A DNA stretch of 21,699 bases from Lunasporangiospora selenospora (lineage: Eukaryota > Mortierellomycota > Mortierellomycetes > Mortierellales > Mortierellaceae): NCBI GenBank assembly GCA_015680635.1, contig JAABOA010000168.1, forward strand, positions 1 to 21,699, written 5' to 3'. Made by a program: the position numbers and the translations under genes. The notes under the pieces were generated by a model. The model had not been told where the DNA came from. It made no database searches and worked only from the letters and a program-made list of their open reading frames with translations. The first letter of the stretch is position 1; every line of letters begins with the position of its first letter. This document shows positions 1 through 21,699 of the stretch, one piece after another.

Positions 1-22
1 TCTCTCTCTCTCTCTCTCTCTC
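1..22. repeat. TC dinucleotide microsatellite, 11 units
   Basis: The window opens with an uninterrupted (TC)11 run directly before the ATG at 24, with a single A between. It probably belongs to the CT-rich leader of the F-box gene. The repeat may continue to the left of the window. Confidence 0.95.
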
Positions 23-23
23 A

Positions 24-548
24 ATGGCAACTGAAAGAACAACGGCGGTCTGTTTTGTATCCGAGAGTATCGACAAGCGCGTTCCCCCAGAGGTCTGGGC
101 GAGGATCTTCCGATACCTCTACCCGTCCCAGCTATCACGCCTCTCAATGACAAACAAAACCTTCAATCAGATTGTGTCATCTCTTTCGGCATGGTCTTAC
201 ATGTTTTCTATAGCACACTCGTCCGACAAGAAGCGGCTTCGAACTCTTCGCGACATTCCCGAATCCAAAAGCTATATGCTCTACCTGTGTGCAATGAGTC
301 TATATATTTGTGAGTGCTGTTTAACTATGGCCAAATATACAGCCAACATCCATGACAAACCTATGCTAAATCTGGCACCAATACAAACTCTGAGAACGCG
401 AGAATTTTCATATGTTGGAGAGGAGCTGGACGTGAACTGGAAAATCAACATGTGCCCCAACTGCACAATAAAAAACCGTGATACCTATACCCCATGTCTT
501 GACGAAAAAACTCGCAAGAGGCTGCTCTGGTATCGGCAGCAGGAATAA
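24..548 (+). CDS. Small F-box protein with paired cysteine motifs
   Basis: An intronless frame of 174 codons. Residues about 20-62 match an F-box: VPPEVWARIFRYL, then LSRLSMTNKTFNQIV and a tryptophan/phenylalanine-rich end. F-box proteins dock on Skp1 and bring substrates to an SCF ubiquitin ligase, so this is probably a substrate adaptor. The C-terminal half carries CECC and CPNC motifs about 50 residues apart, spaced like a four-cysteine zinc-binding fold (inference); no leucine-rich or WD repeats are seen, so the substrate is unknown. The frame is open to the left edge, so the true start could lie upstream, but the ATG after the CT-rich leader is the natural choice. The stop codon overlaps an AATAAA at 544-549, a possible poly(A) signal. 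Confidence 0.7.
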   Translation: MATERTTAVCFVSESIDKRVPPEVWARIFRYLYPSQLSRLSMTNKTFNQIVSSLSAWSYMFSIAHSSDKKRLRTLRDIPESKSYMLYLCAMSLYICECCLTMAKYTANIHDKPMLNLAPIQTLRTREFSYVGEELDVNWKINMCPNCTIKNRDTYTPCLDEKTRKRLLWYRQQE

Positions 549-1267
549 ATGAAATATTTGACACTCAAGACAATTCTATCACTGCACTCTCTTTTACTAT
601 CTTTTAATGTTCCTTCAGGGCTGCTTTCATGCAGCCTCGTTGTTTTATTTGACCCGTTCTCTTCTTTCTTGAGGATTGCGGAGATTGGTTGTTGTGTGCA
701 GGGTCTGGGTGTCTGAGGTTGGAGTTGTCGGGTAGTGGATGTGGGTGTGAGTGTGGACTTAACAATATCGTTATTGCTCTCATTGCCCAAAGTACGGGAT
801 GCTGTAATCAAGGCTCGGTGCGCGTTGCTTTTTATGATATACAAGTGTCTTGAGGGACTGATAGTCCTGTCCAGTTCATCCAGCAGTATTTGTGTGAAAT
901 CGAGTTATCGATAACTTTGAAGCGTGTATGGTTGGTGCTTTAATTATTATATTTTCGCAACATGGAACAAAGAAAGGCAAGTCCTAATTGACTTCATATA
1001 CCTTGCTTCTTGACCTGTTCATCCCTTGTGCCAAAGCCGCTCTCAAGACTGTTTTTTTCCCTGACCTGGGTGTGGCCCCCAATCTATTCTTTTAGTTTGG
1101 CCAGAAAACTATTCAATATGTCAATGATTTTAATGCTTCTTCAATATCCTGGATTTGCGCGAGATAGAATCTCATAAAATTGGCATGACTCGATTAAATA
1201 AGGGTACACCTTGTAATGGTCTAGCCTATGTATGCTTGGCGGACGTGGGGTTGTGGATAGGACTACT

Positions 1268-1300
1268 CTCCCCGAGCTGCACCTTGTCGCTCTCGGGGAG
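1268..1300. repeat. GC-rich hairpin, 9-bp stem and 15-nt loop
   Basis: The arms CTCCCCGAG (1268-1276) and CTCGGGGAG (1292-1300) are perfect inverted complements separated by 15 nt. The flanking bases do not pair. It lies at the left side of the GC-rich island. Function is unknown; it is not followed by a T-run. Confidence 0.6.
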
Positions 1301-2099
1301 CTATCACAGACTGGTGGCACAGCCTGAGGCAGGGGTTGTGCCCGACAGATGCTTGGGGCCATCCCCGAGGGCAGCAAGGTACCACAGAGAGGGATGGCCT
1401 ACGTCATGTCGTCGGGCTCGTGCTCTAGCCCGGAGGGGAGGTGGGGGTGGAGCTGCTGCCGATGCTGCCGGGACTTGGGGGGACTGGCACCGGTGGGGTT
1501 GACATGGCTACAGCTGAATGGGCAGGGAATGGGAATGAAAATGGGACTGAGACGGTAACTTGAGTTAGAGATCCTTGGTGGGGCTGGGGCTAAAACTAAC
1601 ACAATGCGTGGGAATAAACGCCTGTTTGGGTGCGCGGGGATGACAAAAGCGAAGGTGGAGGCGAAGCAGCAATAAACGAGGATAGCGGGTGCGATAGGGA
1701 AAGGGTACTCAATCCCGACACGGACGACATAGAACAGGCGAAGGGTGTATACAGCAGGGTCGCCACCGAATGGAAGGCGTGCCAGGAGTGCCAGTACACG
1801 GCCGATTCGGTGGGGGAAGATGGATGCGTGAGGCTAGGAGAGGAGGGCCGTGGCGGGGTAAGGGGTAATGGTGGGCAGACTGCTGCTGCTGGGATTGTTG
1901 CCCCTGCCCCTGCCCCGGGGCCGCTCCTGGGGCGAGTCCAGATCGTTGGTCTTCTGGTCCAAACGATCTACGAAAGCATAGAGTCAGAACATGTCATCTG
2001 AATATAATGTATCGCGAGAAAAAAAAACAGAGGAAAGGACCACCAACCTTGGTCATTTCAAGTATTGAATTTTTTTAATATAAAAAAAGGTAGGATCAA

Positions 2100-2420
2100 C
2101 TAATGAAATGAAGGAATGAAGGAAGGAAGGAAGAATGAAGGAAATGAGAGTAACGGGGGTGGAAAAACAGGTGGAGAAATTAGGAGAAGAAAATGGGTGG
2201 AGAATGTGGAAGGAGAATGTGGGAGGGGAAAGTGGGTGGAAAGAAAGGTAGACGAAGGTGAAGAAGAAAGGTAGACGAGGGCAAAGAAGAAAAATTGACA
2301 AAGGTGAGCGAAGTGGGAAGGAAAGGTAAAGACAGAAGGTGGTGAGAGCGGGTGGTGAGGACGCGTGTAGGGACCGAGAAGTGTAGAAGGATCTTGGGCG
2401 AGGATAAAGGAATAAAGATA
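2100..2420. repeat. Purine-rich low-complexity tract with tandem repeats
   Basis: About 320 nt are strongly A/G-biased on the + strand (CT-rich on the minus strand). Inside it is a 23-bp tandem duplication, 2244-2266 and 2267-2289, identical at 20 of 23 positions and starting AAAGGTAGACGA. Shorter GGAAG and GGAGAATGTGG repeats precede it. The minus-strand reading is like the CT-rich leaders found before fungal genes; it may also be simple repeat expansion. Confidence 0.75.
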
Positions 2421-3177
2421 GCGAAAAGAACTTGTGTAACCTCTGTTGACCTCGCTGTGTTTGAGAGCGGGTGAGTGAGTGCTGGAGTTGGCGCGTGCGA
2501 TGAGAGATTCGCTCAACACTGACCATGTTAGGTCTCATCGGTCTGCAAACACAACCCCCAACGCAACCACCCAGTAATCGCCTTCCTCAGTCACGCTCAG
2601 GAACTTGAGAGTCTCCATCAACACACTTGCCCTGTCGTCGTCACAGAGACCAGACGGGAGATCATCATTTTGTTTAATTCTTAATTGAAGTTTCGAGTGT
2701 AAAGATCGAGATGGATGAAGTCTGGATTATTGGCAGTTTGCGTGAAACCGTTTTCTGCACCTGACGGGCGAAATGGGTTATAAAAACCGACAGAATATTA
2801 GAAAGTTTAAGGTAGAAAACTCAGACTAAACACTCCTTCACTCGCTTTCTCTCTTTTTCTACACATAGATTAAGCAAAAAGAGTTATTGTTGTCGAGAGT
2901 CTGCAAATCCATGGTCGATCAAGGAAATGGCTCATGAGTAATAATAAAGTTTTCTCAAAGATCTGAATTGTCAATTCGCCTTTTGACTTTCTTCGCCTTT
3001 TCTATACTCCTTTCTTTACTCGCAAACGAAAAGGCAGAAGATGCTGGAGTGAACCATCTGCCCTTGCAGTCCGGTATGTATCTCTCAAGAGCATTACTCG
3101 GCGGTAGATAAGTCCTTTGCCCCCGTTTGTTGGAGAAGCCAGTAGCGGTGCCTGTGCTAATTTTAACTTTAATCACA

Positions 3178-4698
3178 TTAGGATACGTTGCGTAGTGAGT
3201 TATTTGACGAGACAAGGCTAAGGTAATCTTCAATCGTAGTGGTGCACTCAAGATCATCGACATGACTGGCAAACATGCGGTCGTAAATAATTTCTGATTC
3301 GACGGTCTATCATGAAGGCATGGTGTGGACATTATCAACGTTAGATTCGTGAATCATATGTGTCACTGAGATCCCTTCACACTCCAACAACAAGAACAGA
3401 TTTTACCTCAGAATCAAAATAGTCAAGTTTGGTCCAGTTTTCGTCCTCTGCAAGGCGAGCTCGGTTAGGTCCCATTGCTTTCCGTGCCTCAGAATCAGCG
3501 GCACTTCTGATTTGAACCTACATGTGAAAAAAAAAATAGAAGTAGAGAAGATGTAAATAATGGGGACAATGCGAGTTGGATCACATTTGAATAAAAAGGT
3601 GAGTAGCAGTGGACTGGCTTACCTGGAGGGCTTTAGCCTTTTGTTCTTGATCTGCCTTTTGCTTAGCGAGGATTTCCTTGTTCTCATCGTTGACTTTCTT
3701 ATTCGCCTGCTTACGCTTTTCATCAATCTTGTCAAGATATTTGAAGCTCGGGCGAAGTTGGACCGTTCCGTGAAGAGGAGTCAGATGCAACTCGTCTAGT
3801 CAATAAAAGCAAACAAAAAACCATCCCTTAGTAATGGAATCATGATTAGGGGTAGTGGGCCGTGATATTAACAAAAACTTTCTTTCGACATACCATTCCT
3901 CAGCACACCGGCAAGATAATTGGTCGCACTTGGGACTAATGAAGAGATAAGGGTCTGTTTGTCTAACACCTCCTTATCTGCGTCATCGTCATAGGGCTCT
4001 TCATCCAATGCAGTCCTGAGAGGCTTGTCATTCATTCCCATTGCCAGTTCCTCGCCTCGCTCACGGTTGTAATGACTTGCTGCAGTGTCAAGGGGTAGTT
4101 CAAGCTCGATAAGCTGTGACAATGGCTTAATTCTTGCCTTCGTAGGTCCGCACTCGTGCGTATAAGGGAGAGCAGAGGCACGAACGGGATATTGAAAGAG
4201 ATACAAGTGCTTTGCCAAGCGCTGGGAGAGGTACACAGGGATTTCCTTCACCAGCTCATCTCCTTCATCAGCATAGTCAGGCTCCATCGATTTATGGTCA
4301 ACCTCCATGGACGACTCGAATTGGCTAGCATTTTCAGAAGGATCTAAGAGTTCTTCACCCTCTGGCGAGTCACCATTTTCAGAGAGAACCTCCATCGGCT
4401 CTTGCTCCTGTTCCGTTTTGGTGTGAGAAGTTGAATTGGAGTTGCGTGCTGGTGCTGAGGGCGCAGCACTCTCGACCTTCATCCGATCTTCTACCGTTTC
4501 TCTCTTGCCTGCAACCGCCTGCTCTTCTTCAAGTCGCTCCTGTTTTTGAAGTTCATCCTCAAATACGCCTCCCTCTGGTGCCACATCCTCCTGCATATGG
4601 TTATCCTCGGCATCAGAGTCACCAGTAGGTTCGACGGCCTTTTTCCTGGATCGCGCGGAGGGTGTGAATGTCGGTTTGAAACTCTGTTTTGGGGGCAT
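3178..4698 (-). CDS. POLR3E: RNA polymerase III subunit RPC5/RPC37 (Sin-like)
   Basis: Pol III subunit that pairs with RPC4/RPC53 in the TFIIF-like subcomplex used in initiation and termination in the nucleus. Four exons on the minus strand: 4698-3894, 3795-3623, 3517-3407 and 3306-3178. Joined they give 405 residues with no frame conflict. Donors are GTATGT, GTAAGC and GTAAAA; acceptors are all TAG. Residues 1 to about 150 are an acidic, disordered-looking leader. The Sin-like core then follows: IPVYLSQRLAKHLYLFQYPVR, IKPLSQLIELELPLDT, and across the first splice LRN-DELHLTPLHGTVQLRPSF, which matches the family's ELHLTPLHG dimerization motif. The tail has ESEIIYDRMFASHVDD. It is longer than yeast Rpc37 (about 280 residues) but lacks the extra C-terminal winged helices of animal POLR3E. 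It is divergent from CMTR1. Confidence 0.93.
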
Positions 4699-4965
4699 TG
4701 CTAACTAATATAGGTGTGTTTTTTTCGTTCAGATAATCCTGCCAACTGTCTTCTGCGCCTAGACTTCTAGAAAGTGTGTCTGTTTTGGTCTAAATGGGAG
4801 TAGAGAATGAAGACATGAAGGCCTAAAGATGCACCGACCCTTGGGCCTTGGGTTTAGCTGAAGGAAGCCACAATCCAAAACACAGTCTCTTGACTTTTTG
4901 AGTTCCAGGAAGATGAATGTAAGGGGCTATTCTTTACACGTTCGTTGAACGATAGCTACAAGCAA
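4699..4965. promoter_or_regulatory. Probable bidirectional promoter, POLR3E / CMTR1
   Basis: Only 267 nt separate the ATG of POLR3E (minus strand) from the first plausible ATG of CMTR1 (plus strand), so both promoters must share this interval. I see no clear TATA box. A short direct motif CTTGGGCCTTGGG lies near 4840. The call rests on gene geometry. Confidence 0.55.
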
Positions 4966-6996
4966 ATGGATCCATACAACGGTGCGCAAGGCGTATTCAC
5001 CTCAATCCTCTGCCACCAACGTCCAGGCATGGAATTGTGTATTACAGCCGAGCGTACTCAACCATCTGCATTTCCAACCCACTGTTAGAAAGTGACCCGG
5101 TGTTCGCGGCAACGCCATTAGAATCGCCGACGGCCATTCCTTCGCTCCAGAATTGCCCACGAGTGCGTTTCCCAAGGCCAGGACCCCCTAGAGGAGGCCC
5201 ACACGGGTTTGAGTTTGGTCAGCACGCTCCCCTCCAGTATGGACATCAACAGCCAGGTCAACTTCGATATGATCCTGTCCACGGTCTACAGCAGCATGGA
5301 GGGCACCCAAGACATGACCAGTATCAACAGAGCGCGCAACAGCAATACCAAGGTCACCCACAAGGCCGCCCTATAGTCCCTGCAACGGAGTATCTTAATC
5401 AACACCTTGATATCTTCCAGGCTGCCTCTTACGAACTTCCTGAGAACTGCCTCACAATCAGATCAGGATTTCCTGAGAGCATTGACTTTAATATGTTTTG
5501 CTCAGAAGAAATAGTTCGTAACTTGACTGACAACAAGGTATAGGACCCTCTTTTTTCACGAATTGACAACAAACATGCGTGATGGTCCTCGAGAGCTTAC
5601 TTTTTCTGCTACTCTGCTTATCTATCGTTTCCTCATAACAGAGGAAATTGGGCCAGGTTCCCCAGGAGATGTTTAACCGTGCACGACAGCGTTGCAACCC
5701 GTATGAATTGGTCGCGTCTTCAGTGTTTATGAATCGCGCCTCTGTAAAAATCGCCAGCATGGATTCCCAATTAGCATTGACAGCCCCAAAGGAATACCCT
5801 CATCCAGGAAACCATGAAGAAAAAATCGATCCTAAACTATTTCGGTTTGCTGATCTTTGTGCTGGACCTGGTGGATTCTCAGAGTATTTGTTATGGCGGA
5901 TGAATACATGGGGTGAGTCGGTTCGAGGCTGGGCAATGACCCTGAGGGGCGATCTGGATCTCACACTTGACCGATTTCACAAGGATGCGATGGCTAGAGA
6001 GTCGCTTCGAGTGCACTATGGAGCAGATAGCACGGGAAACATCCTGAAGGAAGAAAATATCAGGGCATTTGTCGAGTTTATTGAAAAAGAGACCTTTGGA
6101 CTGGGAGTTGGCCTAGTAGTTGCGGATGGGGTAAGTGTACACCATGGCTGAATCGTCACACGTGGAAAAAGTCGCATTATTCTAACTCCAACTGTGTGTG
6201 TTTCTAGGGTATCTCTGTTGACGGCGATGAGGCTGCCCAGGAGAATCTGCTTCAGCGCTTAATCCTTTGTCAGATCCTTACGATGTTTATGATCCTCCAA
6301 AAAGGTGACGATTCACTGCACAACGCACTTTCTTTGTTCACAACGAGAGTGTGTGAATTCTAATACCCCCCCCCCCTCCTTATCTTAGGTGGAGATTTTG
6401 TTGTCAAAGTGTTTGACATATTCACGCCTGTGACGGCAGGACTGATCTGGATTCTTTCGCGTCATTTTGAAAAGATTTGTGTTGTCAAACCTTTGACTAG
6501 CCGACCCATGAACTCTGAACGCTATGTGGTCTGCAGGCGCCTACTGGAGCGAAGACCTGCTAGCGCTATAGATCACCTACTCAGTGTCAATGCCGAGTAT
6601 CAGCATCTCGAAACGAATGTCTCTGGCCAGGCTGGAGGTCCTAGTGAGACTATTAACCATATAGTGGACCTGGATGTGCTTCAGAATGATCGCCACTTTA
6701 TGGATTATATCAGGAACAATAATGTCAAGACGGCTGTCCGTCAAACAGAAGCCTTGGGAATATTTTTAAATTATGTGAACGAAGGAATTCGTCCGCCATT
6801 TGACCAGGAAGCTATTCGGAGACTGTGCTTGCAAGAGTGGCGAATCCCACCCAGCCCACAATACAGCCATCATTCTCATACCCAACCCCAGAGATCCCAG
6901 GCACCAGCTCAGGGTTATCGCCATCCTCCAAGACATCAGCCTTACCAGCAGCAGTCATATGGGCATGGTTCTCATTCTCGTGGAGGGCATAGGTAG
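4966..6996 (+). CDS. CMTR1: Cap-specific mRNA (nucleoside-2'-O-)-methyltransferase 1
   Basis: Methylates the 2'-O of the first transcribed nucleotide of capped mRNA (cap0 to cap1) with S-adenosylmethionine, in the nucleus. Firm exons: the one ending 5537, then 5642-6130, 6208-6304 and 6389-6996. The Rossmann (FtsJ/RrmJ) core has all landmarks: NRASVK (catalytic Lys, about 215), ADLCAGPGGFSEY (SAM loop), VADG (Asp, about 341), GGDFVVKVFD (Lys, about 381) and SRPMNSERYVVC (Glu, about 418), completing the K-D-K-E tetrad. The N and C termini are His/Gln/Gly/Pro-rich and disordered; no G-patch or WW domain is visible, unlike human CMTR1. The 5' end is uncertain: ATG 4966 (MDPYNG) reaches the conserved frame only through a 35-nt GTACTC..TTAG intron at 5054-5088, short for a fungus. 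With that model the protein has 576 residues. Confidence 0.9.
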
Positions 6997-7382
6997 TTCA
7001 TTTTCGGTCACAGACATATTATTCAGATATTAAATAATGGACCAGAGTATAATCCTTCAGCTACAATCCTCCGTCCATTCTTACACCAACACAGACTGCT
7101 ACGTGCCCCACCTAAATCCAATACGCAACGCCTTGGAGCAAGTCAACTACATGAGCAGCCACACAGCTGGTGAAGAAGGCTATGTGTTTGAAGTAAATAG
7201 AGGTTTTACCGATATTTCGCTCAAACAATTGGAACGAGTCGGCGATAGTCAAACAATGTTGTCCAAGGTTCCTGTCCACCAAGCGAAACAGCGTGTGGCT
7301 TGGCCCAGGCAATGGTAGGAATCGTTGGTCATTTCTGGCCCATGTCTTTGCTATTCCTTCGCGTCAAGCAAATCATCCGCAA
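6997..7382 (+). promoter_or_regulatory. CMTR1 3' end and MED17 leader, with a possible uORF
   Basis: This 386-nt gap follows the CMTR1 stop. A TATTAAATAA stretch near 7028 could serve CMTR1 polyadenylation. An ATG-started frame of 93 codons at 7037-7318 ends 64 nt before the MED17 start. It has no recognisable domain, so it is either an upstream ORF in the MED17 leader or chance. Confidence 0.45.
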
Positions 7383-10341
7383 ATGACCCAGCACCTTGAT
7401 AAACGCATCAAGCTATCTCTAGATAGGAGTGTCGATCGCCTACCATTTGATATTTCAGATAGGGCAGAGGAGATTTATTTACCGTAAGGGCAACCATCTC
7501 GCATCATAAGGCTTCGACTTTGCAATGGATGTCGTTTGTGCTGACAGTTTTACATCTCTCTGGTTCCATCTTTCTTATCATGGGAACTGAATTCCTTACG
7601 CGTATAGAGATGGCGATCCAGCAGAAAAGCTCAAACGCAAGATCAAGGTCATTGCCGAAACAGCTGGAGAAAAATTCGATGAGTTTACGGAAAATATCCC
7701 TTTGCCTCAGTCGCAAGAGAGCGATACCAACTTGAATCAGGACCTAAAGATCAAGTCTCTCGACAAAGATAGCAGTGAACCATCGGCCTCTGCAGGAACG
7801 ATAGCCCTAGCATCGGCCTCGATACCATCGTCTGCTTCAGCTTCTGCTACGGCAGCACGTACCTCTTCATCACCACAAGGAATTTACGCAAAACTCTGGT
7901 GCGATTTTTTTGAGAGCAGGGGGGCGACGTTTACATACCACTTGGAAATAGGTCACTTGAGACAAACTACAAGGAAAACTTACCCTCTATCCATCCCATG
8001 ATATCTAGGCATGCTCAAGGAGAGATTGGAGTAGCATTGGATGCCCTCAACATTATCATTTCGTCTTATCAGACTTCCGCAATTCAGGGTGCATCCAGCT
8101 CAGGTGCAATAATTCAACCCAGCAATGTCCAGCCTTCTGTCCTTCCAGCTGGTGCGCTCAAATGCGAATATGTCCCTAAGGCTCTGCCACCAGTCTCAAC
8201 CCAGGTCATGAACGAGAAATTAGCTCTCGGTGGCAAGAACCACCACCTGCGTAGTGCCGCCGACATCTTGACTGGAGGCGCGAAGAGATTACAGAACGTT
8301 ATGGCGAATGAGGATCATTTCTGGGCAGAGGCTCTTCGACTACGGAAAAACAACTGGTGTATTGTTGCCAGTAAAGCCGGTGGCCCTCATCAGTCAATGT
8401 ATGCTGGACAGAGCAATCGCTCGTCGACTGGATCACACCTCTTTGTGCACTATGGCTTTCGTGATGGTAGGTAGCCCATGCGAATGTTTTAGCGTACAAC
8501 GCTTTCGGTAGTATTGAAAAACTGGAGTACTGGATTGGATACTAACCATTCGTCGCTTTACTGACTAGTTGGATCTATGTATGGTGATCGCGCGTATGCT
8601 GAATTAACGCGTAACTCGCCGCTGACCCAGGAGACAGGAACAGGAGCAGGAGTAGCAAAGAGCATTGATATCGTTATTCCTAACAAGACTGAAAAGCAGA
8701 TCATTATGAGCCTTGTCCAGCAGGGATCGCATCAGACAGAAGGTATCATATTCGTGGCCAAAAAATAGATGACCAGCAGTTTGTTGAATCGAATATTAAT
8801 GTTGTGTTATTTAGGGTCTGGATCACTGAGGTTGAGAGGAAACACAATTCACACCCAGCTTTTGGATGCGCAGTGCACCCTATTTGACGGTGAGCTGTTC
8901 CATGAGGTAAATTAACAAATGACATTTGCAAGATAGCCCTTTGGTGTTTCCAATCCTCGCTTAAACTCACATCTATAGTTTTCTGGATTAAATGGTGGTA
9001 GCTAGTGAACGAGGCAAGAGCGATGACCAACAACGTATCGATCGTGGACAACGAGATCTATCTAGCCGTCAATGACGATCTGGAACTGAGGATATCATAC
9101 CGAGCACCTTCAGAAGAGGAGCTGTCGCTTACCAAACTTCGGTCCAAATTGAACCGGAATCAACGACGGGAATCCATGAGTGACCAAGCACGTCTACTCT
9201 CAGGAACATCAGATATTCTTCGTCATGTTGCTCAACTAATTCAGCATAGACGACACCGCCAAAACATCAAGGAGCGATCGGAAAGCTTTTTCAAGGGCTC
9301 GCGACCCGGCAGCGGTCGCACAACAGCATCATTTGGTCAGATTCAACAGACATTAGCTCAGCGACCAATGGGTATCCTAAATATCACACTTCAGGCACTA
9401 CAATACCTTGCCTTCTCGAAAAGGATTCGAGAAGTAATGAGCAGGGTGACTAAAAACCTACGACATAATTGGTGGGAACCCATTACTGTATACAGTGTTG
9501 ACGCTGATTTGCAGCCACTCTCGAGGAATCTCTGCGTCCTCTCCGACGCCAAATCATTGGGAGTCGCCAGCAATAGAACAAAAGAGTTTGGCATGGGGTC
9601 AGCAGTGGCGATTAGTATTGGCTCTGGATCGGCATCATTTATTCGCTACATAACCCGGGCATACCCCACGCCATGTGTTATCTTGCAGCTTTCAGATCGG
9701 CCAAGCTCACCCATTATGCATCTGGCAGACTTTGAGAAAATTTTAAAGCAGGAACTGACGACACGAATGATTCAAAGAATCTGTGAAGTTGCCAACTCTA
9801 TCACAACATGGACGCGTCGGATCCCTGAGCTCAAGAGTCCAGAGTTTATCATTGATATTGACGACCGATGCGTGGGTGTTTTCCAAGTACCCATTCATGG
9901 TACCGCCGTTTCTAGGAGAGCAGAACTGAATGGTGCAGCTCAACGGTCCATTGGTCACTGGAATAACACAACAATGTAAGTAAAATTCCATGTTGAGATC
10001 TATGGATGCTAATCGATGTTCCTACGCACAAGACTAACGCTTTACTTTGGCTTTGTTGTGTTTGTAGTATTCTGCAGCTAGACATGAATGCAGAAAAGGG
10101 AGCAGGTATTCTCTTGACTAGCAGCCAGGGCGGTGTATCAAGAACTCGGAGGCTCAGTCTCTCCAGTATTTCAAAGCAGACTGTGAATCTATTGCGTGAA
10201 GCCAATAGTCGACCTGATGGGCCAGCTCAATCACGCGAAAAGTCTACTGCAGTGCAAGCGCATTCTACAGACGCTATGAATGATTTCAGGATATGGCTTC
10301 AACATGTCATTATGGCGGAGGTCGAGTCTGAAAAGCACTGA
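7383..10341 (+). CDS. MED17: Mediator complex head subunit 17 (Srb4), with a frame break
   Basis: Scaffold of the Mediator head, required for Pol II preinitiation complex assembly. Six exons: 7383-7483, 7608-8466, 8569-8742, 8815-8906, 9002-9975 and 10068-10341. Landmarks: the N-terminal SVDRLPFDISDRAEEIYLP; a Ser/Ala-rich linker; SRHAQGEIGVALDALNIII; ADILTGGAKRLQN with FWAEALRLRKNNWCIV; CTLFDGELFHE joined across a splice to LVNEARAM; and a long C-terminal half. Branch motifs ACTAACC and GACTAACG are seen in two introns. Oddity: exon 2 changes frame. One frame is used up to about 7920; the frame encoding the conserved downstream part has a TGA at 7911 and opens only after it. The switch therefore falls in or just after the G6 run 7919-7924, and one missing G restores a continuous product of 824 residues. 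No intron of suitable length fits. Since MED17 is normally essential, an assembly error is the simplest reading. Confidence 0.88.
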
Positions 10342-11226
10342 CACTCGGAGACTCATTAGAATAATTGATCTTCAATTTGAAAATTAAAAAATCCGAAAAA
10401 TATACTAAATTGTTGACCACATCTGCTCTTTATCTCGCCAAGCGCTCGCAAGGTGTCATTGCTCATGTTTAGTCGAGAAAATGATGTTGTTGAACCTGGC
10501 TGCTGTGATTCTATGCGATTTTAACTAAAGTGTTCATTTCCGTCTCATTGCCTTCAATTGTCATTGGTGATAATGTAGGCATGTTCACCCTCCTGGGCGA
10601 CCGCATGCTGATGTCTCTCCTCCACTACTTCACCACAATACACGGGCTAAACTAAAATCCGGTCAAGCTTGTGCTGAGGGAGGCGAGAAAAAGACGGCGA
10701 CCAAGAATCCCAGTAGGAAGAGGAAATCTCCCGTCTTAACCACCACCTTTTTGAGTCCGCACTTCACCAGCTGGGTCAATCACTTGGGTTGAATGGACTT
10801 GGGTTCGGTATCTGACTTGTTGACTTTTCTTTTGCTTTCTTCAGGATCTTCACCTCAGGATCATCAAACATTTGGTGGTTCGGCAACTCACGGCTCTTTT
10901 TCCAGAATTCCACGTGGATAGATTCAGGACGTCCAAGAAACTGCAACGGGTACCTCCATGCTTGCACATCTCACAAACGGACAGTTCATTACTTTATCCT
11001 ACCTTGTGGTGGTGCTTGTGTATCCGAGTTCTACAACAAGGATCGCCAGGCAAATTGTTGTAAATTTGCACTTGAAACCGTTCTTTCGGAGATTGGGCAA
11101 AGCAAGGCTCTTTGTAGTGAAAACACGAAATTTGCAAGTCTTGCAAGTGTATTGGTTCACACAGTTTGTTCTGTATTCTCTACCAACATTCTTTTCTCCT
11201 AAATTGTCTCCAATTTGGCTACAGTC
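10342..11226. other. Intergenic region between MED17 and ALG14
   Basis: This 885-nt stretch contains the A/T-rich MED17 3' flank (AAATTAAAAAATCC near 10380) and the ALG14 upstream region. No domain-bearing frame is present. Two moderately long minus-strand frames (10776-10967, and one about 11000-11180) have protein-like composition but no recognised family; they are treated in the findings. I see no tRNA. Confidence 0.6.
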
Positions 11227-12115
11227 ATGATCTGGCAGAATGATCATCACGCCCTGTGGCATGCTCTTGTCGTTCTGGTGGGCGTGACCCTCCTCCTCGC
11301 ACTTGTCTTTGCTGTCCGATTAAAAGCCGCACTCCGCCCATACCGAGAGAAAGATGCATCAGAAAAGAAGCTCGATGGGACAGGATCTGAATCCTCATCT
11401 ACTCTGGGAACAACTCTGAACTCGAGAAAGGCATCAACCCCCAATTCTGACAAANNNNNNNNNNNNNNNNNNNNNNNNNNNNNNNNNNNNNNNNNNNNNN
11501 NNNNNNNNNNNCTCTGGGCTGGACCCCAAAAAGTACTCTCCACGGCACTATGTGGTTGGAATGGATGATTTAGTCAGTATCGAAAAAGTACACCAACTCG
11601 AGTCTGCAAGAGGACAGATCGACATCACCCACCAGTTCAATATCCAAGGGAAGAAGGTGGTGGATCAGGAGCAGTCCGAGGGATATACGATTCACCGAAT
11701 CCCCAGGAGCCGTTTTGTACACCAGTCGATCCTGACGACCCCTTTTACGTTGATCAAGTCGCTCTTGGTGGCTATGCCACTGATCCAACGACTGACATGT
11801 TACACGCGAACTCCTCTGACCAAAAGCAACTCTGGCAAGGGTGCAACACCGTTCAAGACGAATGGACAAAGTATCTTGCTCCTGAACGGACCCGGAACGT
11901 GTTTTGCGCTTGCCCTGACCGTCATTGGTGCACGAATGCTTGGGGTCCCAATTGACCAGACAGCAGCAATTGTCTTTGTGGAAAGCTTTGCGCGTGTTCA
12001 GACGCTTAGTCTAACGGGCAAGCTACTCTATCCGATTGCCGACGTTTTTCTGGTTCAATGGGACGAACTCTGTCAAAAATATCCACGTTCCAATTACTTG
12101 GGAATGCTTGTCTGA
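11227..12115 (+). CDS. ALG14: ALG14, membrane subunit of UDP-GlcNAc transferase (gapped)
   Basis: With ALG13 it transfers the second GlcNAc onto dolichyl-PP-GlcNAc on the cytosolic face of the ER; ALG14 anchors the catalytic subunit. The start at 11227 (MIWQND) gives a transmembrane helix at about residues 10-33 (LVVLVGVTLLLALVFAVRL) and a Ser/Thr-rich linker. After the N gap the family signatures appear in order: LDPKKYSPRHYVV, SIEKVHQLES, YTIHRIPRSRFVHQSILTT, LLNGPGTCFAL, IVFVESFARVQTLSLTGKLL, YPIADVFLVQWDEL and a C-terminal YPRSNYLGMLV. The segment between IKSLLVAMP and LLNGPGTC carries an insertion-like Thr/Ser/Lys stretch. No intron is seen. The sides of the gap are in different frames (see findings). 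The gene is convergent with ZW10, with a transposon remnant between them. Confidence 0.92.
11455..11511. other. Assembly gap of 57 N
   Basis: Fifty-seven N bases sit inside the ALG14 coding region, where the family carries its glycine-rich nucleotide-binding motif (G-S-G-G-H-T type). Frame arithmetic shows that the number of N cannot be the exact missing length unless an intron or another indel is present. Confidence 0.99.
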
Positions 12116-12289
12116 ACGAGAAGCGCTGATTCTATTCATTTGTGAAATAGGATATGGAGTCATTTAATAAGATATGGCGTACTCAGTAATAAACACTCTC
12201 GGCTCTATTTGTTCCTTCTTTCCAGTGATTTGGACCGGCTAAATGAAAGGAGTCTGTGAACTATTGCTACCCAGGGACGCACCGGTTTT

Positions 12290-12329
12290 AACCGACGGTT
12301 ATTTCGGTTAACCGGTTAATAACCGGTTT
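12290..12329 (+). repeat. Left 40-bp inverted repeat of the hAT element
   Basis: Starts AACCGACGGTTATTTCGG and ends ACCGGTTT. It pairs with the reverse complement of 12716-12755 at 38 of 40 positions; the two differences are transitions (C/T and A/G). Confidence 0.9.
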
Positions 12330-12425
12330 AATTCGGTTACTTTCAGTTATTTCAGTCAACAACTTGACTCTGCCTGCACCAAGTAAACGTTTAAACCTTT
12401 AATTATTCTTCCATACTATCCTCTC

Positions 12426-12586
12426 CTACAGTCTCTCAAGACAATTGCAAAATACAATATCACTAACTGCATCATCTGATAGCCGGTTCCTACGGTCTAT
12501 CACTATATTTCTGAGTAGCTGAAAATTCTTTCTGATGCCACAGATGTAGTGGGAATACAGAGGCATTTACGCGCAAGCTTTGCCAC
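12426..12586 (-). pseudogene. hAT transposase C-terminal dimerization domain, remnant
   Basis: On the minus strand one frame reads VAKLARKCLCIPTTSVASER followed by IFS, the core of the hAT dimerization domain (Dimer_Tnp_hAT). About 10 nt further on the adjacent frame continues RNIVIDRRNRLSDDAVSDIV and then FCNCLERL and a stop at 12426-12428, the normal end of such proteins. A single-base deletion near the FSYS/GNIV junction separates the two parts. The WW pair that usually precedes the domain is in another frame and too close, so upstream coding sequence is also lost. This fragment shows that the element derives from an autonomous hAT transposon. Confidence 0.85.
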
Positions 12587-12715
12587 CATAGAAAAGAGGA
12601 ATAGCGCGGAATAGAAAGAAAGTAAAGATATGCATCAAAGGAAAGAAAATCTGGTACCAAAGATGTACAATGGCTACACCACACTGTATTTGACCGAAAT
12701 TAACCGAAATTAACC

Positions 12716-12755
12716 AAACCGGTCATTAACCGGTTAACCGAAATAACCATCGGTT
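12716..12755 (-). repeat. Right 40-bp inverted repeat of the hAT element
   Basis: Read on the minus strand it starts AACCGATGGTTATTTCGG and ends ACCGGTTT, mirroring the left copy. Beyond it toward the interior are two further TTAATTTCGGT units at 12691-12715 that have weaker counterparts on the left. Confidence 0.9.
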
Positions 12756-12761
12756 CTTTTC

Positions 12762-12834
12762 TAGGGACGGACGGTTGACCGATATTGATGGTTAAATTTA
12801 ACCGCGGTTAACCGGTCCTCGGTTACAATCACTG
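12762..12834. mobile_element. 73-bp unit flanked by near-identical 8-bp direct repeats
   Basis: It begins TAGGGACGG and ends CAATCACTG, whose reverse complement (CAGTGATTG) resembles the start. The flanks are TTCTTTTC (12754-12761) and CTCTTTTC (12835-12842), matching at 7 of 8 bases and of the length hAT insertions duplicate. It contains TTAACCGCGGTTAACCGG palindromes. It may be a tiny nested hAT derivative at the right end of the larger element. Confidence 0.55.
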
Positions 12835-12968
12835 CTCTTTTCAGTAAATGAGTAGTATATTAAGTCGCTCGACTAGCCTCGTGGATTACACACTGATCTT
12901 TATCTAGGAACCAATCTACCTCATCACTAACCGTTCCTTTACCCCCCCCCCCACTCTCGCTTTGTGCT

Positions 12969-15900
12969 CTAGGAGGTCCCCCAAGGGTGAAGCATAGGGT
13001 GGCCTTGTTGAATCTCATCAAGATTCTTTTGTCTCAGAGAGGTATCTGCAAATAGTGCACAGATCAATTGACAGAGTTCCCGCTCGTCAAACATGGCCAA
13101 CTGTCTCAACCTGAATCGGATCATGATGTCGGCAAATGACAACTCGAGGATTTCGGTCAACACTCTAAACTTTTCCCACGAAGGGACAAAGTATTGAATA
13201 GGCTTTTTGTTTGTGTTGAGAGTTTGTTGATACAGGCGAGGGATGGCCTTTGAGGGGGGGGGGGGTGCGGAGAAAAAATAAATAAACAAATGGGTTAGAA
13301 TCCGTCATCCAAAAGCACGGGCCACTTTTCCAGGACAGACATTTACCTCGCGTTTCACAGGCTCTCCACCAAGCTTGGCGACTAGCGGTGCGGCATCATC
13401 AAATTGGCCTTCACATTCCACTAGCACATTGCACAGCATCGCCAGTGTATGAGACTCCTTTTCAGAGATATCCGTTAGATCCTCGAGTTCCCTGATAATC
13501 CTCTTGACTGCACCATCGAGCAACTGGCCCATGATATTGTAAAACCCAGTTTGCGAAAGTGTGGGCTGTTGAAATGTGTGAGAAACAGACGTTGTTTGTT
13601 AGTACCTGACTGAGTTGATGTTTAAGAACCAAAGTAAAAAAAGACCTTTTTTTTTTTGACAATGAAGTTTACCTTCCAGACTCTTCCAAGATGTTTTAGT
13701 ACGAATACAATTTGCTTCATGGAACGCTCGCATGAATCAAAGTTTCTCTCCTCATTGGTGTCCTTGAACTTGCCCGCATCGTCAATACTTTGCATTAATT
13801 CATCTCGTTGCTTGCCCTTTAAATATCCGGACGAAAATGAAGCTTATTTGTCAGTCAAAAAAAAGACAAGACGAGACAAGACGAGACGAGACGAGAGAGG
13901 AGAGCTCAGATCCTCTTTGATCTATTCTTACCACATGGAAATCTAGCCAAGTCTTGCCCAAAGCCTTTATAGACGGCACAACATCCTCATACTGAACCTC
14001 CTCCATGCCAGGGATTCCATCCTCAAATCGCATAGGCACTTTGTCGAGCTCTCGAGCAATATACATACAATCGTTATAGAAGAGGATAGCCAATGCTGGT
14101 ACGGAAGTGAGGGTTCTGTTGTGGTAAATCGGCATCAATCCACGGTAGAGGTCGATCAAGGAGCGAGTAGCTTGGTACAGATAGGGGGATCTAGTAACAG
14201 GGTTACAGAAAATGTCAGAAAAAATAGAGAGAGTCCAGGCCAGGTCATCTATTCTGAATGCTTTAGAGATATACTTACGCCGTCTCATTCAGTGAACGAG
14301 CCTCCTCTAGGGTAGCCAAGATCATCTCAATCAATTGCTTGGATTCGGCCGATATAGAGGAATCCTTGAGGTCCGTATACGAGTCTGTAGTATAACCCCA
14401 TGCTCCACCACTTTGCTCCAGTTCATCTATAACAGGCGTAAAAAAGGCTCTCTCTCATGAGGGTTGAATCTTACTTTACCATCCACTGAAACCAACAAAC
14501 AAACAAGAAAAAAAAAAGCGAAATGCCATTACTGGATTCCATACCATGTTGATCAATGTCCTTTACCGCGATTACTTTGAAGTCATCGTTCATGATCATG
14601 GCGCGTCCCTTTTTTAGAAGAGTATCTCTCTTGCGATTGGTATAGTGAACGTCAATAGTATGCACAAACTCGGACAATTCTTGGTCCGCCTCGGTCAGGA
14701 AGCCTATAATCAAGAAGAGGGGTGTTATCTTAGTGACCTGCCACAGATGAAAAAAGAAGCCTGGTATCCAATTGTAAATCCTCCCGCACATCCCTACCAA
14801 GTGCCCGAAGCTCATTCTCGAACTTTTCAACAGACTCGACAATCGGCGTAAAGTTTCTCATATCCTGAGCATCAGAAGGGATCAAATTCGGGAGATGATG
14901 TCGTGAAAGAAGTGAACAGGCCTCCTTGGCGATAGTATGTCCAATCAATTGAACCAGGATTGTAGAGGCTGAGGTGTCATCTTCCATCCAAGGATCGGCT
15001 TCCAAGTCATCAATGAGGAATATACCCTCACGGATAAAACGAAAAACCTCTAGTACATTGTTGAACAGGTCATCTACATCACGTAAAAAGAATAGTAAGC
15101 AACTGGATAAAAAGTCCTGGATACTCTTGAAAATTAGAATTGGATCAAATATCTACCGTTGCTTTTTTCTTGCTCTGGGGAAATGCTCAAAGATAAAGAC
15201 GCCTTTGTAGCAAACGTGCCACTCTTGTCCAGTATGGGTTCAATCTTGGCAGTAGAGTGCGCGTGTCGGGAGATGAGCGGCTCCAAGAGATGGCGCACTA
15301 ATTCTTTTTGAAGAGGTTGAAGCTTTTCCGATGCAACGTCCAAGAGTGTAAGCGCAGAGAGTAGAGCCTGCCATCGGATTGTGTTGGGGGCGGAGCCAGT
15401 GCCGGACTTTGATGGAGCTGACAATGGACTCTCAACATCATACAAGATTGTGATTTGAAATTGATAAATGTCCTCGACCTCTTCAGAGTGCCAAGTTGAT
15501 ACGGCGTTTCGGATCAAATCCTCAAGCACCTGGTCAAAGGTCGTAGCTTTGATGCTGCAGTAATCCTATGGTGTTCGTGTTTGGAATAAAACCTTAGCTC
15601 TTTTTATCCTTCAATTTCCGAATGACATGCCCCCCCCCCCCTCAAAAGACAAAATTGCGTACTGTCAAATACTGAGTAATGTTCGAGTCTGCGACGCCGG
15701 CGTTTGGTGGATTTGCGAGTGCTTTTTCCTAAGAGCATGGATTCCAGGATCAATCATGGTGCATCAACACACATAGCTAGAAAAAGTAAACGATCACTGT
15801 GGTATGCTTTACCGCTTGTCGAATACAGCATCCTGCTTGATAGATTTCACCGGATTTCATGTGAGTATCGTATTGCGAGAGAATGTCGTTGATCTGGTGA

Positions 15901-16649
15901 GTAGAATGAGAGAGATATAAAAGTAGTAGTAAGAGACGATCCGAAGTCCCTTTTCATTAGTGACAATGATCATAGTCCCCCCCGGTTTGAGGGTATTCAC
16001 CTTCAAGAAATGATCCAGTCCATTCAAAACAGCCTCGTTCTCTTGGACCTTGTACGAGGTCTCATAGTATTCAACCAACACAGACATGGCCTTGTGTCGT
16101 AGCCCATTCTAGTAAAGAAGAAATGATTTCATTCATAAGCATGTCATGCCCTGTTCCAAAATCAACTTGGGACGTGATCATCATTATCCACTCAATACAC
16201 AATCTTTCATACTTCGGGATCCATGGTGTTGGAAGAGATTTCCTCCGCCTGTTCGAGCAGTTTGTCAATACTATCCTTGAGTTGAAACGAGTGTTCCATC
16301 GAGTCTGAGAACGCGCTATAGTTGCTAAGTAGCTTCCTATAGACTTGAGTCTATCAACTAGAGTGTGTCAAAAAGGTGCCTTGGGCCATTGTAGATACAC
16401 AAGACCAACGAGTCCTGGAGAATATCGCGAGATGAGGCACATTGCAGTTGTTGAAAAAAATGTCCGAACCTTTGCTTGCTGAATCTCAATGTCTAATGCC
16501 GCGGCCAGTTCCATCAGCTCAGTCACGGATGCTGGCGTGGAGCTGGTCATCGTCAACTCATGAGAAGCTCCTGTGGCCGAAAATGAGTCGTCCAATTGCG
16601 ACGTGACATGACGCGCAAAGTTTTCAGTGGTGATGGCTCCTGAGGTCAT
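12969..16649 (-). CDS. ZW10: ZW10 / RAD50-interactor tethering complex subunit
   Basis: Subunit of the NRZ (Dsl1) complex that tethers Golgi-derived vesicles at the ER; in animals also part of the kinetochore RZZ complex. Thirteen minus-strand exons: 16649-16470, 16350-16213, 16108-16001, 15893-15813, 15728-15663, 15565-15157, 15073-14798, 14703-14545, 14426-14279, 14190-13932, 13816-13673, 13565-13347 and 13247-12969. All phases agree, giving 821 residues (human about 780). Family matches: QVYRKLLSNYSAFSDSM, KFENELRALG spliced to FLTEADQELSEF, VHYTNRKRDTLLKKGRAMIM (human HFANKKCQDVIVAARNLM), SLIDLYRGLMPIYHN, LFYNDCMYIARELDKV, PSIKALGKTWLDFHV, and the C-terminal QYFVPSWEKFRVLTEILELS and LICALFADTSLRQKNL. 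The first donor is a weak GTTCGG; two acceptors are AAG rather than CAG/TAG. In a fungus the trafficking role is the more likely one. Confidence 0.92.
13863..13903. repeat. Pentanucleotide (GACGA/GACAA) tandem repeat in a ZW10 intron
   Basis: About eight imperfect GACRA units follow a short A-run. The tract lies inside ZW10 intron 10 (13817-13931), where the transcript reads it as a pyrimidine-rich TCTCG repeat. It is probably length-polymorphic. Confidence 0.8.
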
Positions 16650-17043
16650 GGTCCTTTGAATGGGAAGTCCTGATGCGAACCTGATCCCTTTTATATGACT
16701 ATAAGCTCCCTGAACAGATTAGAGTCTCAAGCATGCTCCGTGCAAATGCATGTCATTCTTTCATCTGAACTTTTGAGTTTTGAACGCTCTACTTAAGGGT
16801 ACTTTCCTCTTTTCAACTCTTTCTCGATTTTGATGGCGGGCGAAGCCCTTCTATTTGTTTTTTAATTGTAGTTCTATACTAGTGTGTGCGTGCGTACTAT
16901 TTTCTTTTCTTTCTTTCTTTCTTTCTTTTTATATTTGTATCTTGGACCTCAAAGATCGGATATGAGGTTTCCTTCAACTAAAGGGAGTACCTGAAATGAA
17001 TTCCAGAGGGAAAACTATGCAAATAGAGACTCAAAAAATGACT
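16650..17043 (-). promoter_or_regulatory. Intersectin 3' flank and ZW10 promoter region
   Basis: These 394 nt lie between the stop of the intersectin gene and the ATG of ZW10, both on the minus strand. The stretch must carry the poly(A) site of the first and the promoter of the second. It contains a (CTTT)n microsatellite and T-rich runs but no recognised gene. Confidence 0.55.
16904..16930. repeat. (CTTT)n microsatellite
   Basis: CTTTT followed by five CTTT units and a T-run. It is GAAA-rich on the ZW10 coding strand and lies about 260 nt before the ZW10 ATG. Confidence 0.85.
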
Positions 17044-20000
17044 CTACAGAACTCTGTAGGACATGTGAAGCTTCACTTGAGCTCCATTATGGACAGGGGC
17101 CAGGACTTCGACGCCCCTTTCACCATAGAGTACGGCATCCCGGAAACAAATCTGCGTGCTTCCCATAAACGCTAGAGATTGAAGCAAAAAACAAAAATCG
17201 CGATTAGAAAACCGAAGATCAGAGGAGGAAACCACTACAAATGAGACAGAACTTACTGTCGGGTGAAAAGGGATTTGTGGACAGGATATTAACATCCATA
17301 ACTTGATTGGGATCCATAACCGCGAAAATCACACTCTCACGCCACAGGATCGTGAAGGTGCCCATGTAGGGGTGATCACTTGACACGGCATGAGTGGTAA
17401 AGAGCTGCTCGCCCAGCAAGAGCGTACATTGGAATGATTTTGACTTGGCTATTATTTTCCCCAAAGTATATCATTGGGGGAGCGTCAGTAAATGAATGGC
17501 TATCGTAAATAGAGAGTTACGAATATCTTGACCCAGAATTGTATGAAACGTACCAAATTCAGTGCTTGGGATCATTCCTTCAAGAACTCGGATGGTCATT
17601 GTGCCGACCGTCTCTGCCAGAGGTGGTCGAATTGAGGTTCGCATCCCTCCAGCCCTAGGTGCTTTTGCCAGAGCCTCTGCTGCCTTTTCCAAGTTACGAA
17701 TCCAGGCCTTCCATTCACGCTCTGAATTGGCCTTGACATGGATCATGGTCTGTTGCGGTGGTTGACGATTATTGCCTTGAAGATGCATAGGTGCGTAGTG
17801 TTCAGGCTGAGCTGATTGCTTGGGGCTCGTGATCACAATCGTGAACCGAAGATCTTCGCCTGGCTGAGTCTTGACTCGGACTCGTTCTAGCGGGATCGGC
17901 TCCCGGTAGAGACTCCATCCTTGGCTTTCATTCAAAGCCCCTGGCAGGTGGGTCATACTATCATGAGTAGAACTTCTTTCACCAGTGGAGTTTGTAAACG
18001 AAGTAGACATGTTGTTGGAAGCACCGCTAGAAAATGCAATTGAAGATTGTGAAGCGACCTTGCGAAGTCCTGCCCGAGCCGAGTGGCCCGTATCGCGTCC
18101 AGGGAGGAAGAGCAAAAGGAGGTCGTTGAATAGGTATCCGTAAAGCCGTCTGCCAGATTTGGCCTTTCTCAAGGAGCCCTCATGGATGATGAGACGAGGT
18201 CCAAGGTGTTTTGTATCTCTAGTCAACACCAATCCCTGATATGGATCAACAAGAGAAGAAACCATAAAGGTCAGCCAAAGTCTAGACCTGCCTAGAGAAT
18301 TTTCATTGGACCAAGAACACACTTCATACCTCAGTCTGGCTGGATGACATTTTGCGCTGAACATCTTCAAGTTGCTCTCGTGTTTCACTAGTTCGGAGTG
18401 TCTCATTGATCTTCCCCAAGCACTGCTCCGCTGAGACGTGAGCCTCGGAGAGTAGTAAATGGTCGATATGATCCGTCTCTGTGTATTGCAGAATCTGTGA
18501 GAGGGAAGGAGTAGGCAGTTAGATAAACAGCCCTCAGTCCAAGTGAGAATCGATCCGCGATTAACCATTTCTTATATCTTGACAAGCTGTTTACCTTGGA
18601 GATAAGCAACGGGTAACGGGTGATACGCTGGAAAGGTTGCAACAAGAAACTTGACAGGTCTAAGCCTCGGCAAGCAGGAGATTTTTTGGCATCCTAGAAG
18701 ATATCGAAGCAGGTGAGCGTTTTTTTTCTTTTCCTTTCTTTTTCGCAAGACTAGCTTTCAGCTTGGTTATTATTATCCACAAGACCAAACATACCTCTAA
18801 AAACTCGGCCAGCAACCGACTCTCCTTCATTCTTCTCGAAAGTAGGACGCTGGCTTCCTTTTGGCTAGCACAGTACCGAAGGAAGCATCCCGAACGTTCC
18901 ACAATATGTTCGTTGATCACATCGCCAACAGCAGTGACGATCTCTCCTTCACCGTTACCCTGCACTTGACGCTGTTTCAGCTCATTCACGATGCTTTGAG
19001 AGAGGTCCAAAAGACTCTGCCAATCTTTAAAAACGAGTTCACTTTCCGCCGGGGTCAAAAGTCCTTGGTTCACCAGCGGTCGCTGGAAATCGTCTCGGAT
19101 CAGGTACAAGTTGTTTAAATATACTTGCTCCGTGGCGATCAACTCGTGGATCGCCTCCTGTCGCTTACGCTCCTTCTCCGAAAGCGTGCCCAGCATCTCT
19201 GGGTCAACCGTCGAACTCCAGTTGGAAGATGATAAAGACGTTTGACTTGACGTGCGTCTAATTGTACCACGCTCTGGAACTTGTCTTGCCCAAGCATCGC
19301 CTTCAGACACATACTTCGGGTGACTTGGCGTTAAGTACTGAGAAGATGTGCCTGAGTTTGCACCTACCATCGAGTGACTTCCAGATCTTGGCCGTGAACC
19401 AACGGCGTGATCTGAAGGAATTGCTAGATGTGAAGAGAACGACTCTGCAGAGTTATTTCTCACTAATAGGTTCATAGCGGAGGGAGCGCTTGTTGATAAA
19501 CCACCTGTGCTTGCGGAGCGAGACACCAAGGCAGGTCTTGGGGGAGCGGGGCGATACTTTGGTGCATTCGCCACGATGATAGCGGGTGGAGTGGAAGCAC
19601 TCAATAATTGATTGGTAGAGGTCCAATCTGCAGTCTTTATGTTTACAGAACCATGATCATTGTCGGAGCCACCATCGCTCTCTGAGTCCGACTCTTCATC
19701 TTCTTCTTCATCCTCCTCCTCTTCTTCAGATGACTCAGGCTCGGACGACTCGCTTTCCGTCTCGGCAGCTGCTCCGCATCGAAGACCGAGATGTCGCCCA
19801 TTCAGTTCATAATGCCAATAGATAAAAAAGTAAAAAAAAAAAAAAAATAGAAACAGTTGACTACAACATGGCGAAGACATGACTATTTAAAATCATGCTG
19901 ACACCGCCATGGGCAGTACAAAAGAACAACAATCCAAGATAGAGGCAGGAATGCCCAAGAAGATGGAGAGAGAGAAATAGGAATAAATAAATAAATAAAA

Positions 20001-21699
20001 GCCAGAGAGGACAAGGTTAAAAAAAGGATTCACTAACCGCTAGTGGATTGCCCCTCAACCTCTTCTAAATAAGTGGCCGGGATCATGCCCGTCTGACCCT
20101 TGTCATTGCGGGCGCGCCACCATACGGGATCCGGCTTTTCCAAAATCTCAATCTCATCGTCAACCTCGAGTGTAAGTTCCTCGCTACTCTGTCCCGTGTA
20201 CGAATACAAAGCCTTCGCACGCGAGATCGGGGTTTCTAAAAGTTGGAATCGATGATGTCGAAAGGAGGATTGGAGTTCAAAGGGTTAGCATGTATAAGTA
20301 GAAGTGAAAATAGTTCGAGTGAAATATCATCAAAAGCAAATGTATCAAAAGGGGGAAATCATACCGATGGCGACTGGTTGACCAGGTATATACTCCTCAA
20401 GATAAGATGATGGCAACATGCCTATGGCGCCAGCCTCCGTTTGCACACGCCACCATTGGGGATCAGGTTTTTCAAGAACTTCCACAATGTCTCCACGCTC
20501 AACAGAGATTTCTTCTTGGCCCTGACCTGCATAAGAGAACAGTGCCTTTGCCTTGAATGTATCTAAGGTCAATAAAGAGATACCATCATGGTAATTCCAG
20601 GAGAAAAGGCAGTGCGGAGTCAGATCCAGTCAACTATTGTTTTTTGCCACCTTGGCTGACAAGCCCATCCTAGCCCATTGAAAATCATAGTATCAACAAG
20701 GACTACAAACCTGCAATCTGTTGAATATAAGTCTTGGGGAGCCAACCCTTGGCATTCTCATCATTTTCCGTGACACCGTAAACCCAATCAACATTTGAGC
20801 TGTCCTTGGGCTGGAAGACCTTAATGTAGTCATTCGCCTCAAAGCTGATCTGTTCGGGTGCCACCGCGCTATAGCTCCACAGGGCCTTGGCACGATATCC
20901 CGAGGAGAAATCAACCTTGGCCTCAATAGGCTCTTCTGCGCTAGTGGAAGGAGCACCAGTAGCAGTCACCGATAAGGCTGAGGTTTCTGGCGATGAGACC
21001 ACTGCTGCAGTGGCGACTGGGGCAACTTCTGGGGCAGGCACTGGAGCAGGCAACGCAACAGGGTCGTTGGGAGCATGGCTAGCCAAGCGACCAAACCAAT
21101 CTGTGCTCTCACGGCGGCTATCGTGGTCAATGGCAAAGGATTTTGGTTCCTCTCGGCCAGTGGGGATACCAGAAGATTTCTTCAAGGTAGGCATTCCGTT
21201 GGCAAACATTCCGCCCAATCCAGGCATACCGACCGGCTGAGGGGCAGTCTTCTCCTCAGAGCGAGGCGCCGACGCAGACGACGATGACGAGTTTTCCTCA
21301 CCCACAATGCGACCTACAAAACATAAGAATAAATACCTGGCTGTTAGAAAAAGACATTGACAGCAACTACACAAGCGACGCAGTGAGCCATGAAAACATA
21401 CCAACTCCCTTGACCCCGCTAGAGTCGCGTGTAGTGGCCTTCTTCAAGCGGAAACCCGCCTGAATTTGGCCCAAAAGCGCGCCGCGATCACCTGCAGGGG
21501 GTCGAGGTGCCTGAGATGACGCGCTTTGGCCAGCTTGTGGCATGGGGGGTGGTGGGGGGATGCCACTTCCTCCGGTAGGCATGGGAGGAGGAGGAGGAAT
21601 GTTGCCTCCAAGAGTAGGCATCGGTGGTGGTGGTGGAATGTTGCTTCCAGGAGCAGGAGGTGGAGGAGGTGGAGGAGGAATGTTGCTACCAAGGGCAGG
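17044..21699 (-). CDS. Intersectin/Pan1-like WH2-SH3-DH-PH-C2 protein, 3' part
   Basis: Endocytic scaffold and probable Cdc42 exchange factor at actin patches. The gene continues beyond the right edge. Visible exons: >21699-21402, 21313-20711, 20562-20365, 20235-20038, 19768-18795, 18693-18595, 18494-18330, 18235-17554, 17448-17257 and 17171-17044; phases agree, giving 1178 residues in the window. Order: IPPPPPMP repeats; a WH2 actin-binding motif ([19 protein letters not shown]); a verprolin-like [15 protein letters not shown]; three SH3 domains (ALWSY, ALFSY, ALYSY); an acidic Glu/Asp/Ser stretch; a DH domain ([20 protein letters not shown], then [20 protein letters not shown]); a PH domain ([20 protein letters not shown]); and a C2 domain ending MSYRVL. 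The DH-PH-C2 order and motifs match intersectin-long. The exon starting at 19768 uses a CAG acceptor about 60 nt after a T15 run with no earlier AG except the adjacent GGAG. EH domains, if any, lie outside the window. Confidence 0.9.

Follow-up and report, generated by a model that had tools for sequence, protein, structure and literature searches.

A probable fungal intersectin gene of Lunasporangiospora selenospora with a WH2/verprolin-type module ahead of its SH3 and DH-PH domains

The end of one contig of Lunasporangiospora selenospora raises a question of protein architecture: do polyproline repeats and a WH2 motif belong to the same gene as an SH3-DH-PH protein of the intersectin kind, and if so, is such a gene a new fusion, an ancestral form or a further member of a known group? 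The window analysed here is the whole contig (G000:C141, 21,699 nucleotides), with nothing 5' of position 21699 within it. Pfam assigns to the region 1-16718 an F-box protein (3-548), the RPC5 subunit of RNA polymerase III (3868-4704), an FtsJ methyltransferase (5639-6996), Med17 (7914-8474), Alg14 with a run of N inside (11420-12115) and ZW10 (from about 13305). The gene of interest lies on the minus strand between 21699 and 17044, and all of its coordinates given below refer to that strand.

The exon chain and its domains

We find that ten exons and nine GT-AG introns form a single open chain of 1178 residues with an open 5' end, a splicing pattern predicted from frame and splice signals. 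A domain scan of the spliced product with hmmscan recovers WH2, three SH3 stretches, RhoGEF (3.1e-38) and PH_13 (2.1e-15), together with a C2 match that stays below threshold (E 0.02); the modules follow each other as polyproline, WH2, verprolin-type motif, three SH3, DH and PH, with a weak C2 last. The initial annotation had described one exon chain that joins a polyproline/WH2/verprolin-style part to three SH3 domains and DH-PH-C2; the in-frame chain and the domain scan agree with this description, the C2 being weak.

Exon 1 (21402..21699), whose 5' part falls off the contig, encodes IPPPPPxP repeats and the WH2 motif (about 21415-21498), which scores above the Pfam cut-off (PF02205, E 6.5e-11; 2.2e-10 in the genome search). 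It ends at a GTATGT donor at 21401, where intron 1 begins (21314..21401, phase 1, GTATGT...TTGTAG); the position that had been proposed for this intron proved exact, with a length of 88 bases. Exon 2 (20711..21313) is open in frame and carries the verprolin-type motif (about 21177-21221), a linker and the first SH3 domain (about 20714-20897; SH3_2 E 9.2e-6, over the cut-off). The second and third SH3 domains occupy separate exons, exon 3 (20365..20562, SH3_1 1.3e-12) and exon 4 (20038..20235, SH3_1 3.1e-16), both exactly 198 nt long and of phase 1-1. Identity between the two products reaches 50%, compared with 32-33% for the first SH3 and either of them. Equal length, equal phase and this degree of identity are what a tandem exon duplication would lead one to expect, and the third SH3 therefore looks like the product of one.

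Intron 4 (19769..20037, 269 nt) is the longest intron and separates the last SH3 from the DH domain. It has a GTTAGT donor with a stop codon at the donor, and its acceptor offers two choices, with exon 5 starting at 19768 or 19771 and in frame either way. If intron 4 were retained, the protein would terminate one residue past the donor, as expected of a short form, and both Cin1 and ITSN1 are described as producing short and long forms (PMC3645719). We did not take this stop codon to prove a short isoform, since introns 2, 3 and 7 also run into a stop within six codons; that a short isoform would end at intron 4 is for this reason a suggestion. Exon 5 (18795..19768) encodes an acidic stretch, a disordered linker, the linker tryptophan (NWSSTVD, about 19223) and the first part of the DH domain (RhoGEF 9e-16), which continues through exon 6 (18595..18693, RhoGEF 2e-9) and ends in exon 7 (18330..18494), reaching 3.1e-38 over the spliced chain. 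Exon 8 (17554..18235) holds the PH domain, matched by PH_13 in two stretches (E 2e-16), and the start of a C2-like region that extends through exon 9 (17257..17448) to its end and the stop codon in exon 10 (17044..17171), in frame with the chain throughout. The two halves of the PH_13 match are split by a long Ser/Thr-rich, low-complexity insert within exon 8 (17554-18235).

Intersectin identity and known relatives

Comparison of the acidic-linker-DH-PH-C2 part with all PDB chains shows that the DH-PH region is that of an intersectin. The top seven distinct PDB sequences are all derived from intersectin 1 or 2 (4.6e-57 to 6.7e-40), with ITSN2 at 4.6e-57 and ITSN1 at 2.3e-54, while the best non-intersectin, NET1, reaches 1.5e-28; the first half of the PH domain in exon 8 aligns to intersectin as well. 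A search of the exon-5 DH region against prokaryotic and viral contig collections returned no relatives. The linker between SH3 and DH, including its tryptophan, aligns best to ITSN1 (3jv3, 8.4e-17) and ITSN2 (3gf9, 2e-15). Tryptophan falls on tryptophan (SSNW here, SQQW in ITSN1 and ITSN2), and this residue probably corresponds to W1221 of ITSN1. The linker tryptophan W1221 is reported to be essential for autoinhibition of the exchange activity of ITSN1 (PMC3645719). Between the last SH3 and the DH domain also lies a strongly acidic Ser/Glu/Asp stretch (19640-19768) that could recall an acidic segment of the Arp2/3 type but holds no tryptophan.

The C-terminal end is less clear-cut. Through the C2 domain the ITSN2 alignment continues colinear in a second piece, which is weak (FSPDTFMGSTQI versus FSPDDFLGRTEI), but the C2 region alone reaches E 0.24, behind another C2 protein at 0.083, and the Pfam C2 match at E 0.02 stays below the cut-off. 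A C-terminal C2 domain is thus likely and not proven. The three SH3 domains encoded by exons 2-4 form an array upstream of DH-PH as in intersectin. Their best matches are chains of GRB2, CRK and p47phox, not intersectin; short SH3 domains commonly match chains from outside their family best. Taken together, the gene very probably encodes a fungal intersectin of the Cin1/ITSN type whose C-terminal part is seen here, with EH domains and a coiled coil expected beyond the contig end. Two other identities suggested by the 5' part were rejected: Pan1, in which the chain would end after polyproline-WH2, is ruled out by the SH3 and DH-PH domains that follow in frame, and verprolin by the three SH3 domains and DH-PH downstream in the chain.

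The missing 5' part was sought in the 8.2-Mb, 475-contig assembly of this genome, which is incomplete. Neither an EH family search at a loose threshold nor a search with exon 1 as the query found a contig in this assembly that continues the intersectin gene 5' of 21699. The only EH matches there are an EHD-type ATPase and a weak match in a proline-rich gene (L002). The former (L001, G000:C112:7813-11055, positions 448-1752) is dynamin-like and bears its EH domain at the C-terminus. This partial assembly also gave one dynein heavy chain match, of the cytoplasmic type, a hint that the fungus has no flagella, and a pattern of the 515F type matched at one site with one mismatch, which is probably organellar.

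An intersectin with WH2 is not without precedent. Cin1 from Cryptococcus, an architecture known since 2010, is described in two reports as a single chain with one EH domain, a coiled coil, WH2, two SH3 domains and RhoGEF-PH (PMC3645719, PMC7324655). The gene described here shares with Cin1 of C. neoformans / deneoformans the presence of WH2, SH3s and DH-PH in one chain and in the same order. The SH3 count and the C-terminal end differ, with three SH3 domains and a C2-like end here and two SH3 domains and no C2 in the Cin1 reports. According to the earlier report, Cin1 homologues were present in other basidiomycetes and none was found at that time in zygomycetes or ascomycetes (PMC3645719). A later reconstruction reported intersectins both in a nucleariid and in early fungi, those of early fungi with DH-PH-C2, and inferred that the primeval intersectin lacked three of the SH3s but otherwise had every domain typical of animals; EH and C2 were lost within fungi, and ascomycetes lost intersectin (Dergai et al., 2016; PMC4824007). 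The initial annotation had presented the locus as a fusion of a WH2 module with intersectin-long. The in-frame join to SH3-DH-PH-(C2) holds, but the combination had already been described in Cin1 and by Dergai et al. (2016), and the gene thus joins an established class of fungal intersectins instead of marking a new fusion. With the long forms of animal ITSN1 and ITSN2 it shares the SH3 array, the tryptophan in the SH3-DH linker, DH-PH and the C2-like end colinear with ITSN2. Animal intersectin-long, in contrast, has five SH3 domains and no WH2, and a PH domain with a long insert and a longer, acidic SH3-DH linker set the gene described here apart from it. For ascomycete Pan1 we know of no SH3-DH-PH-C2 part. 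Pan1 resembles this gene in carrying polyproline and WH2 and in its link to endocytosis, and a role equivalent to that of intersectin has been proposed for it (PMC5559269).

Possible origins of the WH2 module

The combination of modules could be an artefact of the gene model, uniting two adjacent genes or the two sides of a misassembly. The contig does end inside a repetitive polyproline exon, which would fit such an error; yet the ends of the 88-bp intron are canonical, the frame is kept across it, and the same module order is already present in Cin1, which makes this explanation highly improbable. If the chain is one gene, it might preserve an ancestral state, one protein with SH3-DH-PH-C2 as well as a Pan1-like part (EH, coiled coil, WH2), which was later split into Pan1-like and intersectin-like descendants. 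The naming of the Pan1-End3-Sla1 complex as the yeast counterpart of intersectin (PMC5559269) would fit such a history, as would the zero matches to End3 and Sla1 SHD1 models, although the latter come from an exon-by-exon search of an incomplete assembly, mean little and are not evidence of absence. Against it stands the published reconstruction, in which the ancestral opisthokont intersectin was without WH2, and WH2 was gained later within fungi, in an advanced group (Dergai et al., 2016; PMC4824007). We therefore consider an ancestral form unlikely; of the two histories offered by the initial annotation, ancestral form or lineage-specific fusion, a lineage-specific gain of WH2 fits the literature better, because that reconstruction has the motif gained within fungi, although a single locus weighs little against an ancestral WH2.

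A source for the gained module may lie in the same genome. Its verprolin/WIP gene lies apart from the intersectin gene, on contig C273 (L004, G000:C273:2097-5177, about 1120-1695, minus strand); it starts with MPPPPPPPP and carries WH2 and LGGLFSGGMPKLK. The WH2 motif of the window is identical to that of this verprolin at 19/25 positions, against 9-11/25 for the WH2 motifs of N-WASP. The segment after WH2 gives a Smith-Waterman score of 82 with the C273 verprolin, where the best of 3000 shuffles reached 77. In each gene a phase-1 intron follows WH2 closely, 11-12 codons beyond LKK, and the next exon contains an LGGxFxxGMPxLK motif. Measured against the verprolin pattern of an N-terminal Met-polyproline stretch, WH2 and the LGG-F-GMPKL motif, the window gene has the latter two, and the start of its protein falls off the contig; verprolin/WIP, for its part, is without SH3 or DH-PH-C2. 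The label "verprolin-style" given earlier to this part of the chain is well chosen, for the WH2, the downstream segment and the phase-1 intron all resemble the organism's own verprolin. These likenesses suggest, without proving, that the WH2 exon was copied from verprolin. More fully, the WH2/verprolin-type exon pair would have been copied from the organism's own verprolin gene into an intersectin that had no WH2, which refines the identification as a fungal intersectin more than it contradicts it. The treatment of WH2 as a gain of fungal intersectins by Dergai et al. (2016; PMC4824007) speaks in favor of such a transfer. However, the comparison covers one genome and the WH2 motifs of N-WASP, the two intron positions lie one codon apart, and the resemblance may instead reflect older descent common to all fungal WH2 proteins or convergence on actin. 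Copying of the exon pair is hence a tentative reading, somewhat doubtful as the evidence stands.

Predicted function and significance

Actin binding, Cdc42 activation and an endocytic role are predicted for this protein from work on Cin1 and ITSN. At endocytic sites the protein would most likely scaffold coat proteins, the WH2/polyproline module would supply G-actin and profilin-actin, and the SH3 domains would bind proline-rich partners of the WASP and dynamin type. The linker between SH3 and DH would restrain DH-PH; once active, DH-PH would load Cdc42 with GTP, and WASP-Arp2/3 would be switched on. For Cin1, yeast two-hybrid analysis is reported to show contacts of the DH domain with Cdc42 and of the SH3 domains with the WASP homologue Wsp1 (PMC3645719). 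The same report describes Cin1 mutants that lack the GEF part, or the GEF part and the SH3 domains, as being without phenotype, and the Cin1 DH-PH may therefore be redundant (PMC3645719).

The known picture of intersectin is left unchanged by this gene. It extends the Cin1-type architecture, in that a C2-like end is kept alongside WH2, and copying of verprolin exons would give a concrete origin to a WH2 motif of which published work has recorded the gain but not the source. A wider claim is that verprolin was the source of the WH2 and verprolin-motif exons of fungal intersectins, through copying at the boundary of a phase-1 intron; we regard it as more doubtful still. On that reading, in a lineage that has kept C2, a single protein would hold what is divided elsewhere among WIP, Pan1-End3-Sla1 and an exchange factor for Cdc42.
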